Source: Deltaproteobacteria bacterium (GTDB lineage Bacteria; SZUA-79; Acidulodesulfobacterales; Acidulodesulfobacteraceae). From it: 64,000 nt of DNA. The stretch covers positions 1 to 64,000 of the forward strand of contig JAMDCP010000013.1 in the NCBI GenBank assembly GCA_023489335.1, in the 5' to 3' direction. The notes beneath the pieces are model-generated. The model made no database searches. It saw nothing but the letters and a program-made list of their open reading frames with translations, and was not told the DNA's origin. Positions 4,894 to 58,306 of the stretch are shown here, one piece after another. A program made the position numbers and the translations under genes. Position 1 is the first letter of the stretch. The number at the start of each line of letters is the position of its first letter.

Positions 4894-5937
4894 TCATAAA
4901 TTAAGTCCCTTTTTACTATCGTTATATCTTTCTTCCACCCCGGTGAATTTATAAACCAATAGCGATACAAGCCATGCCGATGTCAATATGCCGGCTATAA
5001 TACCGCCTAACATTGCAAAGGAAATATTATTAAAGAAATCCCACGGTTCCCCCGTAAAATTAAATTCCATTCCTATAACCTGAAGCCATTCCACCGTTCC
5101 GATGCAAAATGCTAAAAAAACAGAAATGCTTGTGATAGAAATATTGTAAAAGATTTTCCTTACGGGATTCAGGAAAGCCCAACTATAAGCGTACTGCATT
5201 ACAACGCCGTCGGTTGAATCGAGTAATATCATGCCCGACGCAAATACTAAAGGCAGTATCAAAACATCGATTAGCGGCCTGCCGGATGAAGCAAATACGG
5301 CTGAAATAGATAATACGCCGACCTCGGTCGCCGTATCAAAACCTATGCCGAATAAGAGCCCGACAAAAAACATCTGCCAGCTTGACTTGATGATTTTCAT
5401 GATGCCGCTAAAATACCGGAACATGAATCCTCTTTTTAAAAGTTCCTCTTCTATTTTTTTATTTTTAAAGTTTTTAAAATCCCTCGCAATCTTAACGATA
5501 TTTATCAGAATGGCGAGATTCATAAAAGCAATTAAATATAAAAATAAAGCTGAAGCGCCTGTTCCGAGTATATTGCCTAAATTACCCAATTCAGGATAGG
5601 CTTTAACCACAAATGTTCCAATGATAACCGTTATTATCGTCAAAATAAAAACCGACAACGCGTGCCCGATTGAGAAAAAAAATCCGACGCCGATAGGTTT
5701 TTGGCCGTCATTCATTAATTTTCTCGTCGTGTTATCGATTGCGGCAATATGGTCGGCATCAAGCGCATGTTTTAAACCAAAAAAAAAGGCAAGCGAACCT
5801 AAGCTTAATAAAACAGGAAAGACCCTTGACCTGTCGATTAAGATAATTACGGAAAATAACAGGAAAGCAATTAAAAATGCGTAAAGAAGAATAAGCCTTT
5901 TTTTAAAAGGCAACGAATTAAAAGGATGCGAAAACAT
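4894..5937 (-). CDS. NiCoT-family cobalt/nickel permease
   Basis: Secondary transporter of the HoxN/NixA/NicT family. The hallmark metal-binding helix HALDADHIAAIDN (H57-x4-D62-H63) is intact, followed by FSIGHALSV and the signature LFGIGFDTATEVG. About eight hydrophobic segments and 347 residues fit the family. A cobalamin riboswitch lies directly in its leader, which argues strongly that the physiological substrate is cobalt for B12 synthesis. A GGGAGG ribosome site sits 9 nt before the ATG at 5937. Confidence 0.93.
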   Translation of the reverse strand: MFSHPFNSLPFKKRLILLYAFLIAFLLFSVIILIDRSRVFPVLLSLGSLAFFFGLKHALDADHIAAIDNTTRKLMNDGQKPIGVGFFFSIGHALSVFILTIITVIIGTFVVKAYPELGNLGNILGTGASALFLYLIAFMNLAILINIVKIARDFKNFKNKKIEEELLKRGFMFRYFSGIMKIIKSSWQMFFVGLLFGIGFDTATEVGVLSISAVFASSGRPLIDVLILPLVFASGMILLDSTDGVVMQYAYSWAFLNPVRKIFYNISITSISVFLAFCIGTVEWLQVIGMEFNFTGEPWDFFNNISFAMLGGIIAGILTSAWLVSLLVYKFTGVEERYNDSKKGLNL

Positions 5938-5977
5938 AATTAGACCTCCCGCTAATTAAATTCAAATAGTATCTTAA

Positions 5978-6165
5978 AAAGCAGGTCTTCCGGCTTAAAC
6001 ATAGGAACGTTCCGCCTTCCCGGCATTTATCAATCTTGCCAGTGGCTCAGTGGAATATTCTTTATGGCGGCTTTAAAAAGCAAAACGCCGCCATAAGTTA
6101 TTACGGCTGCGGGAACAGCACAGGATTTTCACCTGTTTCCCTAAACTTTTAAGATAAAGTTTAGT
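5978..6165 (-). promoter_or_regulatory. Cobalamin (B12) riboswitch
   Basis: The minus strand carries the conserved elements in order: ACAGGTGAAAATCCTGT, a GCTGTTCCCGCAGCCGTAA core, a variable GC-rich peripheral hairpin (GGCGGCG...CGCCGCC), the B12 box GCCACTGGCAAG, and the closing GCCGGAAGACCTGC. It lies in the leader of the cobalt permease. Family knowledge: adenosylcobalamin binding usually shuts off expression of the downstream gene. The ends are approximate by 10-15 nt. Confidence 0.93.
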
Positions 6166-6262: not shown

Positions 6263-6865
6263 CTAAAACAGATAAGGAATGTAACGCTTTGTTCGAATCA
6301 TGTAGCTGCGATACTCATCCCCGAATTTCTCTATCAGCGCCTTTTCCTCTAAAGGCACTCTAAAGAAAGCAATGGTAATGGCAGCGGCAAAGATAATAAC
6401 CATGCTCAGCCAATTTCCGAGCAATAATCCAAATCCAAGCATGAAAAGGAAAAGCCCTGTGTAAGCCGGATGTCTGATAAGGCTGTATATTCCCCTTTCA
6501 ACTAATATATGGTCCTGCCTGATTGTAAGCACGGGAGAGAAATACCGTCCCAGCGTTAAAATCGCAATCAGCCGGATTGTTGCACCCGCCGATAAAAAAA
6601 ATAATCCGCAAAAAAACCAAAAGTCCTGATGCCATTCAATTCGTCCTATTTTTCCGAAGGATAATAAGATACCGGTTAAAGTAGCGGTAGTGACCAAAAT
6701 AATATATATTTGGGTCCACCTTAAGTCGTACACTTTTCCTTCGATATGCCCGAGAACTTGCTTGAAGGTTTGCTTAGCGATAAAAATATGCGGAACGACA
6801 ATCAAAACAAAAATTGCGGAAAATATATAAAGATAGGGATATTTCAACCAGATTGGGTAAGACAT
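6263..6865 (-). CDS. Isoprenylcysteine/phospholipid methyltransferase-like membrane protein
   Basis: A 200-residue integral membrane protein with about five hydrophobic segments. The C-terminal half carries the family signature RHPAYTG (131-137), followed by the EEKALIEKFGDEYRSYM stretch typical of the ICMT/PEMT fold, which binds S-adenosylmethionine at the membrane face. The methyl acceptor cannot be predicted. GGGGGAGAA precedes ATG 6865, a good ribosome site. It is a single gene, separated from the cobalt permease by the riboswitch region. Confidence 0.8.
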   Translation of the reverse strand: MSYPIWLKYPYLYIFSAIFVLIVVPHIFIAKQTFKQVLGHIEGKVYDLRWTQIYIILVTTATLTGILLSFGKIGRIEWHQDFWFFCGLFFLSAGATIRLIAILTLGRYFSPVLTIRQDHILVERGIYSLIRHPAYTGLFLFMLGFGLLLGNWLSMVIIFAAAITIAFFRVPLEEKALIEKFGDEYRSYMIRTKRYIPYLF

Positions 6866-34564: not shown

Positions 34565-35290
34565 CTACATTACGCTGTTAATTGCTTTGTTTTGCAATTC
34601 ATTAATTTTCGCTCCGGCGCTTTTTGAAAGTTCGTAAAGTTTCGCCAGTATATCGAATCCGATAGGCGTTTTTTCCGCGCACCCCTGAACCTCGATTATC
34701 TTTCCCGACCCTGTTAAAACAAAGTTAAAATCCAGCTCGGCAATAGAATCTTCAGAATAATCGAGGTCAAGCAAAATTTCACCGTTCACGATTCCAATGC
34801 TAATTGCGGCAGCCGAATCGTAAAACGGCATTTTTTCGATGTCGCCCTGCTTGATAAGCTTTAAGAACGCCAGATAAGCGGCAACATATGCCCCTGTTAT
34901 AGAAGCGGTTCTTGTTCCGCCGTCCGCGCTTATAACATCGCAATCTATTAATATGGTTATGTCGGGAAAATCCGAAAAATTCATAACAGACCTGAGCGAC
35001 CTTCCTATTAACCTTTGTATTTCCTGCGCTCTTCCGTTAACCTTTCCTTTTACGGAATCCCTCGGTATCCTGTTTTGCGCCGACCTCGGAAGCATGGAAT
35101 ATTCGGCTGTCAGCCATCCTTCCCCCTTGTCTTTTAAAAATGGGGGCACTTTATAGTCAACCGAAGCAGTGCAAATAACTTTAGTATCATCCGCCTCGAT
35201 TAAACACGACCCCTCCGCATACTTCATATAATTCGGCGTTATTACCATCGGCCTCATCTCGCCCGCTAACCTGTTTTTCTTTCTTGCCAA
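34565..35290 (-). CDS. rph: Ribonuclease PH
   Basis: 3'-to-5' phosphorolytic RNase that trims tRNA 3' ends. The start RPMVITPNYMKYAEGSCLIE, the QEIQRLIGRSLR phosphate/RNA site, and DCDVISADGGTRTASITGA are all conserved. 241 residues. Translation begins at TTG 35290, with GGGAG seven to eight bases upstream. The short SelD-like reading frame at 35266-35367 overlaps its start. Next gene downstream is rdgB. Confidence 0.94.
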   Translation of the reverse strand: MARKKNRLAGEMRPMVITPNYMKYAEGSCLIEADDTKVICTASVDYKVPPFLKDKGEGWLTAEYSMLPRSAQNRIPRDSVKGKVNGRAQEIQRLIGRSLRSVMNFSDFPDITILIDCDVISADGGTRTASITGAYVAAYLAFLKLIKQGDIEKMPFYDSAAAISIGIVNGEILLDLDYSEDSIAELDFNFVLTGSGKIIEVQGCAEKTPIGFDILAKLYELSKSAGAKINELQNKAINSVM

Positions 35291-35376: not shown

Positions 35377-35634
35377 TTAATCCCACTTTTTATTCTTAAT
35401 GAAAAATATGTAAAGGTCTTTCAAATGAATTACATTAAGTAATTTTACATTAATAAGCGAGCATAATGCAGGGATATCGTTTAATAAAGAATCCTTGTCC
35501 GAAATCACCATTAAAACATCGTCATGTTTTAAAACCTTAAGTTTTTGGACGACCGCCCAAACAGGCGGGCCTCAACAAAGCCCCCTGATATCAAGGGGAA
35601 CGCCTGTATAATTTAAGCCGGATTTAATCTCCAT
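35377..35634 (-). CDS. TusA/SirA-family selenoprotein (in-frame TGA = Sec21)
   Basis: An 85-codon gene hidden by one TGA at 35572-35574. The frame reads MEIKSGLNYTGVPLDIRGLC, then U21, GPPVWAVVQKLKVLK, HDDVLMVISDKDSLLNDIP, and so on to a TAA. This matches the TusA fold throughout: LD-RGL-x-C-P-x-P-V, the D-V-L-x-V-x-x-D strand, the DIP motif and a final YIFFIKNK strand; normal length is about 80. The TGA falls exactly on the family's catalytic cysteine. AGAGG five bases before ATG 35634 is a good ribosome site, and a SECIS-like hairpin follows the TGA. Family role: sulfur (or here perhaps selenium) relay by a persulfide-forming residue. Alternative: a nonsense mutation, made unlikely by its exact position and the SECIS geometry. 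Confidence 0.83.
35544..35561 (-). promoter_or_regulatory. Candidate bacterial SECIS element
   Basis: Counting from the base after the TGA, nucleotides 11-16 (TTTGGG) pair with 23-28 (TCCAAA), one pair being a G-T wobble, closing the six-base loop CGGTCG. The loop holds GGUC at +18 to +21. In the E. coli fdhF SECIS, as I recall it, a loop with GGUC sits about 18-22 nt after the UGA. SelB binding is inferred. A competing GC-rich stem (35553-35568) overlaps it. Confidence 0.65.
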
Positions 35635-35666
35635 TTTTACCTCTTAAATTAAAATTAATTACTTAC

Positions 35667-36101
35667 TTACGCCGCCCTTAAGGCGGCGTCTAAAATACCG
35701 TTAACAAAAGACGGGGATTCATCGTTTCCAAATTTTTTGGCTATTTCCACGGATTCATTGATAATAACATTTTTAGGTATTTCAGGATGAAATAAAATCT
35801 CATAAATCGACAGCCTTAAAAGGTTTCTGTCAATTCTTGACATTCTTTCTATCGACCAATTTTTTGATACTTTCTTAATAATGCTATCTATCTTTTCTAA
35901 ATTAAGTAATGTCCCATGGGAAATATCGAAAAAAAAATCGTAAATCTGGGATGTATCCTTTTTAAATCCGTCTCTAATAAGGCTTTCCGAAGCAAAATCA
36001 TTATAAAAACTTCTTATTCTATAATCCAGCCCGTTTATATCCCCATCCGTTTCATATAAAAACTGCAATGCCAGTTCCCTTGCCTTTCTTCTTTTTGTCA
36101 T
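35667..36101 (-). CDS. nusB: Transcription antitermination factor NusB
   Basis: All-helical RNA-binding protein of 144 residues. RRKARELALQFLYETDG at the start and RNLLRLSIYEILFHPEIPKNVIINESVEIAK (in two shorter blocks around residue 90) then FVNGILDA are NusB hallmarks. Acts with NusE in rRNA antitermination. It follows ribH on the same strand, as in most bacteria. Its last codons form an 8-bp palindrome. No clear ribosome site. Confidence 0.94.
   Translation of the reverse strand: MTKRRKARELALQFLYETDGDINGLDYRIRSFYNDFASESLIRDGFKKDTSQIYDFFFDISHGTLLNLEKIDSIIKKVSKNWSIERMSRIDRNLLRLSIYEILFHPEIPKNVIINESVEIAKKFGNDESPSFVNGILDAALRAA
35669..35689. repeat. Palindrome at the nusB 3' end
   Basis: ACGCCGCC-CTTAA-GGCGGCGT, an 8-bp perfect stem over the last nusB codons and stop. 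In the minus-strand RNA it is followed by A/U-rich sequence but no proper U-run, so it may be a weak terminator or attenuator between nusB and the selenoprotein gene. Confidence 0.45.
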
Positions 36102-57658: not shown

Positions 57659-57991
57659 ATGGAAAATCCCAAAACTCCGCTTGATAAATTTGCCGAATTT
57701 ATCGGCTCGGTTCTTACGACAACGGAGGATAGGTTTCAAAAGATACTCGATGAATTTATCGTCAATCAAAACTTCGGAAAGAAAGAAGCCGAAGATTTTT
57801 CGAAAAAAATGAAAACGGTATATGATTCAAACAAAGCTAGACTTTCCGCCTTAGTCGATGAATCCATTAAAAAAGCCATGGGCAAAGCTGATATCGCCCG
57901 CAGCTCGGAAATTAAAGAATTAAAAGAACAGATAAAAACGCTGGAAGAAAAAATTCACAAACTGTCCCATATCAAAAAACATACTGACTGA
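57659..57991 (+). CDS. Phasin-like coiled-coil protein
   Basis: A 110-residue, mostly helical, charged protein ending in a predicted coiled coil (SSEIKELKEQIKTLEEKIHK). The N-terminal part (DKFAEFIGSVLTTTEDRF) and overall pattern resemble small phasin / poly-hydroxyalkanoate granule-associated-like proteins, which often bind hydrophobic surfaces. No PHA synthase is in the window, so the function is open. AAAGGAGG is an excellent ribosome site. Downstream of rplS by 88 bp. Confidence 0.6.
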   Translation: MENPKTPLDKFAEFIGSVLTTTEDRFQKILDEFIVNQNFGKKEAEDFSKKMKTVYDSNKARLSALVDESIKKAMGKADIARSSEIKELKEQIKTLEEKIHKLSHIKKHTD

Positions 57992-58027
57992 GGAAAATAC
58001 CGATTTAATTTTTTGTATATAGTAAAG

Positions 58028-58306
58028 ATGACGGTAAAATCATACAGGGTCATAATAAAAGGCATTGTTCAGGGAGTTAATTTTAGAAATTTCACCAAGC
58101 GCGAGGCAGATAGAATCGGCATAAAAGGCTATGTCAAGAACACCCATGACGGTCATGTAGAGGCTTTTTTCGAAGGCGAGGAAGACAGGATAAAAGAAAT
58201 GATTGCAACTGTTCATACAGGTCCGCCTTCTTCGAGGGTAAAAGAAGTTAAACTTTACGAACAGGAAAGCCTGTCAAACTTTAAGGATTTTAAAGTTATC
58301 CGGTAA
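58028..58306 (+). CDS. acyP: Acylphosphatase
   Basis: Hydrolyses acyl phosphates such as carbamoyl phosphate or 1,3-bisphosphoglycerate. The phosphate loop GIVQGVNFRNFT holds the catalytic Arg20, and GYVKNTHDGHVEAFFEG holds the catalytic asparagine. 92 residues from ATG 58028 is exactly family size; the TTG at 58013 would add five residues. The ribosome site is weak. Confidence 0.92.
   Translation: MTVKSYRVIIKGIVQGVNFRNFTKREADRIGIKGYVKNTHDGHVEAFFEGEEDRIKEMIATVHTGPPSSRVKEVKLYEQESLSNFKDFKVIR

Follow-up and report, generated by a model that had tools for sequence, protein, structure and literature searches.

A predicted TusA-fold selenoprotein with a vicinal Cys-Sec pair in an acid-mine lineage of uncultured bacteria

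The closest described relative of the protein considered here is TusA (YhhP; PF01206; structures 1dcj and 3lvj/3lvk), a small sulfur carrier whose persulfide-bearing cysteine opens a CPxP signature. The two have in common the fold, the length, the position of the reactive residue and a second cysteine after the DIP motif, and they are set apart by a predicted selenocysteine (Sec) in place of Cys, by Gly in place of the first Pro of CPxP and by an extra invariant Cys immediately before the Sec; over the structural match, identity to Escherichia coli TusA is 26%. The TusA-type domain is also found in YedF/SirA-like proteins, a family that the available portion of one selenium study (PMC2432076) ties to selenium use through a link to selD, without presenting its members as selenoproteins. 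Unlike YedF, the protein described here has no DsrE-like domain, is not encoded beside selD and, with only 85 residues, falls far under the cut-off of the YedF model (22.7 bits against 79). DsrE-like and rhodanese-like proteins are catalogued prokaryotic selenoproteins of the sulfur-transfer type (PMC13188914), and both their families and their motifs (UxxC, UxxS/UxxG, CxU) differ from those of this protein.

SirA, TusA, PF01206 and COG0425 are absent from that 2026 catalogue of prokaryotic selenoproteins (PMC13188914), and neither SirA nor TusA occurs in the main texts of five further selenoproteome surveys. On this coverage of openly readable main texts, a Sec-containing TusA variant is likely, rather than certain, to be new to the literature. 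Standard gene calling would stop at codon 20, so most annotations of the lineage probably lack the gene. If the protein is made as predicted, the TusA sulfur-carrier family joins the users of selenocysteine, in an acid-mine lineage sustained by iron and sulfur chemistry, and a small single-domain protein becomes available in which Cys-Sec carrier chemistry can be compared directly with that of a Cys-Cys paralogue from the same genome.

The locus lies in a 64-kb stretch of DNA, referred to below as the window, and its features are collected in Table 1. The original prediction, made from the letters of the window, was of a hidden TusA-type selenoprotein in an 85-codon frame between rph and nusB, interrupted by a single TGA at codon 21 with no other lesion and preceded by a good ribosome site, and these features of the frame were borne out. 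On the minus strand, a detail that the prediction did not give, the frame opens with an ATG at 35634, the TGA is its sole internal stop and it is otherwise undamaged, and aagaggtaaaaATG upstream of the ATG is a plausible ribosome site; a plus-strand reading of 35377-35634 was rejected for its many stops. Reading through the TGA gives a protein, here called Sec-TusA, that begins MEIKSGLNYTGVPLDIRGLC-U-GPPVWAVVQKLK... and scores 35.2 bits against the Pfam TusA model, whose cut-off is 28.6. Alignment of the orthologue profile with E. coli TusA places the UGA column on the Cys of GLRCPEPV, which agrees with the further claim that the TGA occupies the position of the family's reactive cysteine. Other single-UGA frames were sought across the 64-kb window, away from long open reading frames, and none was judged convincing. 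At 57659-58303 on the plus strand, a coiled-coil-like gene, a TGA and an acylphosphatase-like frame follow one another in one frame, and this TGA looks like an ordinary stop.

Table 1. Window coordinates of the features of the Sec-TusA locus.
Feature	Positions	Strand	Description	Evidence
Sec-TusA frame	35380..35634	(-)	85 aa, Sec at residue 21 (predicted); stop TAA 35377-35379	Pfam TusA (PF01206) E 1.1e-8; 27 orthologues; AlphaFold TusA fold
In-frame UGA, codon 21, putative Sec	35572..35574	(-)	Same column as Cys in E. coli TusA GLRCPEPV	TGA in 27/27 orthologues
Cys20 codon	35575..35577	(-)	Vicinal partner of the Sec	Invariant, 27/27 orthologues
Ribosome-binding-like aagaggt	35639..35645	(-)	5' of the ATG	Direct sequence reading
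nusB	35667..36101	(-)	Upstream neighbour	Pfam-confirmed; upstream in 27/27
rph (RNase PH)	34565..35290	(-)	Downstream neighbour	Pfam-confirmed; kept in 25/27
Bacterial SECIS hairpin, UUUGGGC[GGUC]GUCCAAA	35544..35561	(-)	Apical loop 35551-35554, 17 nt past the UGA	Covariation; RNAalifold; single folds; frozen third positions

Membership of the TusA family is supported both by the Pfam score and by the modelled structure. AlphaFold2 run on the orthologue alignment returned a strand-helix-strand-helix-strand-strand fold (pLDDT 87.9), the best match of which in the PDB is E. coli TusA in its complex with IscS (3lvj_C; E 2e-5; TM 0.75/0.82), and the YeeE(TsuA)-YeeD(TsuB) thiosulfate uptake complex is a further top match. 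The protein retains DIP-x-x-C and fails the TusA equivalog model NF001423, at 40 bits against a cut-off of 78. It also lacks the CPxP signature, the first Pro of which is Gly in 27/27 orthologues, as had been noted for the single sequence; LC-U-G is invariant across the same 27 and is followed by P-P in 26 and by T-P in one. With LC-U-GPP, a vicinal Cys-Sec pair and then Gly, where TusA has CPxP, the protein is best described as a divergent TusA variant. Mammalian thioredoxin reductase carries a C-terminal GCUG motif, in which a vicinal Cys-Sec pair is likewise followed by Gly; the fold and the position in the protein are different, and the likeness is one of motif only.

Conservation among relatives is central to reading the UGA as a sense codon. 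In a sample of 30 genomes from the family, 27, spanning six genera and all uncultured, encode Sec-TusA, and each of these has exactly one in-frame UGA, always in the same column, with an open frame beyond it. A UGA in the identical column of 27/27 orthologues from six genera cannot be put down to chance, and no degraded frame was seen among them. Selection is evident on both sides of the codon, with pN/pS of 0.17 upstream and 0.24 downstream at near-saturation of synonymous differences. The order nusB-tusA(U)-rph is kept in 25 of the 27 genomes, and no Cys orthologue was found at the locus. Three genomes are without a match: two of them (G013 and G023) have no match for nusB either, so that the locus is probably unassembled, and in the third (G026) rph comes directly after nusB, so that Sec-TusA is genuinely missing from the site and is dispensable in that genome. 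Outside the family, no UGA form of TusA was found in 356 sampled genomes (386 in all), where only stop-free or TAA-interrupted frames occur; the nearest outside match comes from a phylum that holds no more than four genomes, each with a frame free of stops. The host family probably belongs to Ca. Acidulodesulfobacterales, through its SZUA-79 lineage. NCBI taxonomy places this order within the phylum Ca. Acidulodesulfobacteriota.

Beyond what the original prediction pointed out, there is an invariant Cys ahead of the Sec, a Cys paralogue and a covarying hairpin just downstream of the UGA. The hairpin has a stem of seven pairs, with codons +6 to +8 (GCG GTC GTC) supplying the loop and the 3' arm, and across the 27 genomes the third bases of these codons have zero entropy, whereas the remaining four-fold columns vary; elsewhere in the gene GTC accounts for 15 of 141 Val codons. 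Across 24 distinct sequences, pairing holds in 95.8% of cells, and 24 cells in three of the pairs show changes on both sides. The covariation score was reached in 0 of 500 shuffles, and pairing falls to 29-51% when the partner is shifted by one to three bases. RNAalifold recovers the same GGUC hairpin unprompted. The published model of bacterial SECIS elements calls for G in the first two loop positions, a loop 16-37 nt past the UGA and a limit of -7.5 kcal/mol (PMC13188914). The GGUC loop begins with GG and its distance falls within the range, and the isolated hairpin folds at -7.4 kcal/mol in the window, marginal to the limit, and at -8.0 and -10.4 in two relatives. For the window sequence taken by itself, folding the 55 nt downstream of the UGA to minimum energy favours another hairpin, CCGCC/GGCGG, which was rejected because the relatives keep the GGUC hairpin instead. 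The assignment is thus made from covariation and frozen synonymous sites, the window fold alone favouring the alternative, and on this comparative evidence the hairpin 3' of the UGA is a bacterial SECIS element.

The machinery needed to use such an element, a search for which had been proposed at the outset, is all encoded in the source genome (1.80 Mb in 21 contigs, 92% complete). The tRNA-Sec scores 69.8 bits against a gathering score of 47 and is also found independently by ARAGORN, which reads its anticodon as TCA; SelB scores 315.5 bits and SelA 565.7 bits, and SelD is present and itself carries a single in-frame UGA. In the wider family SelB is below the strict threshold in five genomes, two of which hold it in pieces that are over the cut-off. 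SelD appears to be a selenoprotein throughout the lineage, with a strong SECIS: one in-frame UGA is found in 30/30 family genomes, at HGUGCK in the 28 with a readable start region, and in the source genome its SECIS folds with a GGA loop 17 nt past the UGA, the same spacing as in Sec-TusA. None of the ten open reading frames surrounding selA/selD is a TusA or YedF gene. A 199-residue protein near selA (locus L124, 7502-8101) has weak similarity to an IscB/Cas9 model and is probably an ordinary HNH endonuclease.

The locus therefore combines what is looked for in a bacterial selenoprotein, namely a conserved UGA under selection on both sides, selA, selB, selC and selD, a SECIS element, and homologues with Cys at the Sec position (E. 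coli TusA and the GLCCSVP paralogue described below). We put at roughly 0.94 the probability that the product is a TusA-fold selenoprotein of 85 residues with Sec at codon 21. Comparative genomics supports, to the limit of what sequence can show, decoding of this UGA by SelB and the Sec-tRNA under the guidance of the adjacent downstream SECIS. In a single genome, a TusA pseudogene created by a nonsense mutation, or a sequencing error, would look just the same, as one stop in an otherwise intact frame; the orthologues refute this reading, since the UGA recurs in 27 genomes with purifying selection downstream of it and a conserved hairpin, and we regard it as exceedingly improbable. It might also be supposed that UGA has come to stand for a standard amino acid in this lineage, in which case residue 21 would not be Sec and the in-frame UGA of SelD would find the same explanation. 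Against this, UGA still terminates glyA and glcF within the window, which excludes a general change of the code; SelA, SelB and SelD are present together with a Sec-type tRNA of anticodon UCA; and reassignment should produce many conserved read-through genes without a SECIS, none of which emerged from the window scan. We give this second possibility next to no weight.

The relationship of Sec-TusA to other TusA-like proteins of its host bears on what the selenoprotein might do. The source genome retains a canonical TusA, of CPMP type, with NifS- and IscU-type genes next to it, and it also has a Cys paralogue with the motif GLCCSVP (G000 contig 11:15392-15625) that adjoins a TetR-like gene. This paralogue is 41% identical to Sec-TusA and has two adjacent Cys at the matching positions, with Cys-Cys-Ser-Val-Pro where Sec-TusA has Cys-Sec-Gly-Pro-Pro and a TetR-like neighbour in place of nusB. 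It clusters with the Sec clade and apart from the CPxP forms (starred branch 100/99, on long branches and from short proteins). A likely history, by inference, is that a Cys-Cys ancestor had its second Cys replaced by Sec, or the reverse. The region around it (locus L092, G000 contig 11:9000-22000) holds two tandem TusA-like frames upstream of the TetR-like gene, at 5787-6044 and 6393-6626, one of which carries GLCCSVP, and in the other the site, DLCSSCCLG, is degenerate; comparable CCS forms are present in two further genomes, G002 and G011 (loci L094 and L095).

In the model, Sec21 immediately precedes the first helix, at the place of the persulfide-bearing cysteine of TusA proteins, and is itself preceded by the invariant Cys20; as the original prediction proposed, Sec at this place may ease the transfer of sulfur or selenium. 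The protein could then be a small soluble relay for sulfur or selenium that also has a redox role, in which Sec21 would act as the nucleophile that takes up sulfane sulfur (or selenium) and Cys20 as the resolving thiol, through a Cys-Sec selenenylsulfide whose formation would free the chalcogen to a partner and couple transfer to a thiol reductant. This chalcogen-relay chemistry, drawn from sequence and fold, is put forward tentatively, at a little under even odds. We extend the same guarded confidence to the broader proposal of a new selenoprotein family, in which a TusA fold would have exchanged its single sulfur-carrying Cys for a vicinal Cys-Sec pair and internal selenenylsulfide chemistry would let the carrier both take up and discharge its cargo. 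The replacement of Pro by Gly together with the added vicinal Cys suggests a specialised paralogue and not a stand-in for ordinary TusA. The operon context (riboflavin synthesis, nusB, rph) gives no pointer to a sulfur or selenium pathway.

Other functions would leave the identification of the selenoprotein untouched. Sec-TusA may be an ordinary TusA-type carrier that serves tRNA thiolation or sulfur metabolism, with Sec merely standing for Cys and the vicinal Cys incidental, and it is true that the IscS-TusA complex is the best match of its fold and that DIP-x-x-C is retained; yet the CPxP proline is uniformly Gly, Cys20 is invariant in the Sec clade and is Cys in the GLCCSVP paralogue too, and the canonical CPMP TusA already fills a place beside the NifS/IscU-type genes, all of which makes this explanation rather unlikely. 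Less probable still, and argued by analogy with the role suspected for YedF-type proteins, would be a selenium carrier that feeds SelD, or a store of selenium as perselenide. The linkage of SirA-like genes with selD in other bacteria (PMC2432076) and the weak similarity to the YedF model speak in its favour, but Sec-TusA is not adjacent to selA or selD (contig 16 versus contig 13), the DsrE domain is missing, and the genome with nusB directly before rph has SelA and Sec-SelD without it. The internal selenenylsulfide relay is the function that we prefer for Sec-TusA. Elsewhere in the window, a cobalamin riboswitch was detected at 5963-6164 on the minus strand, with a score of 76 bits.
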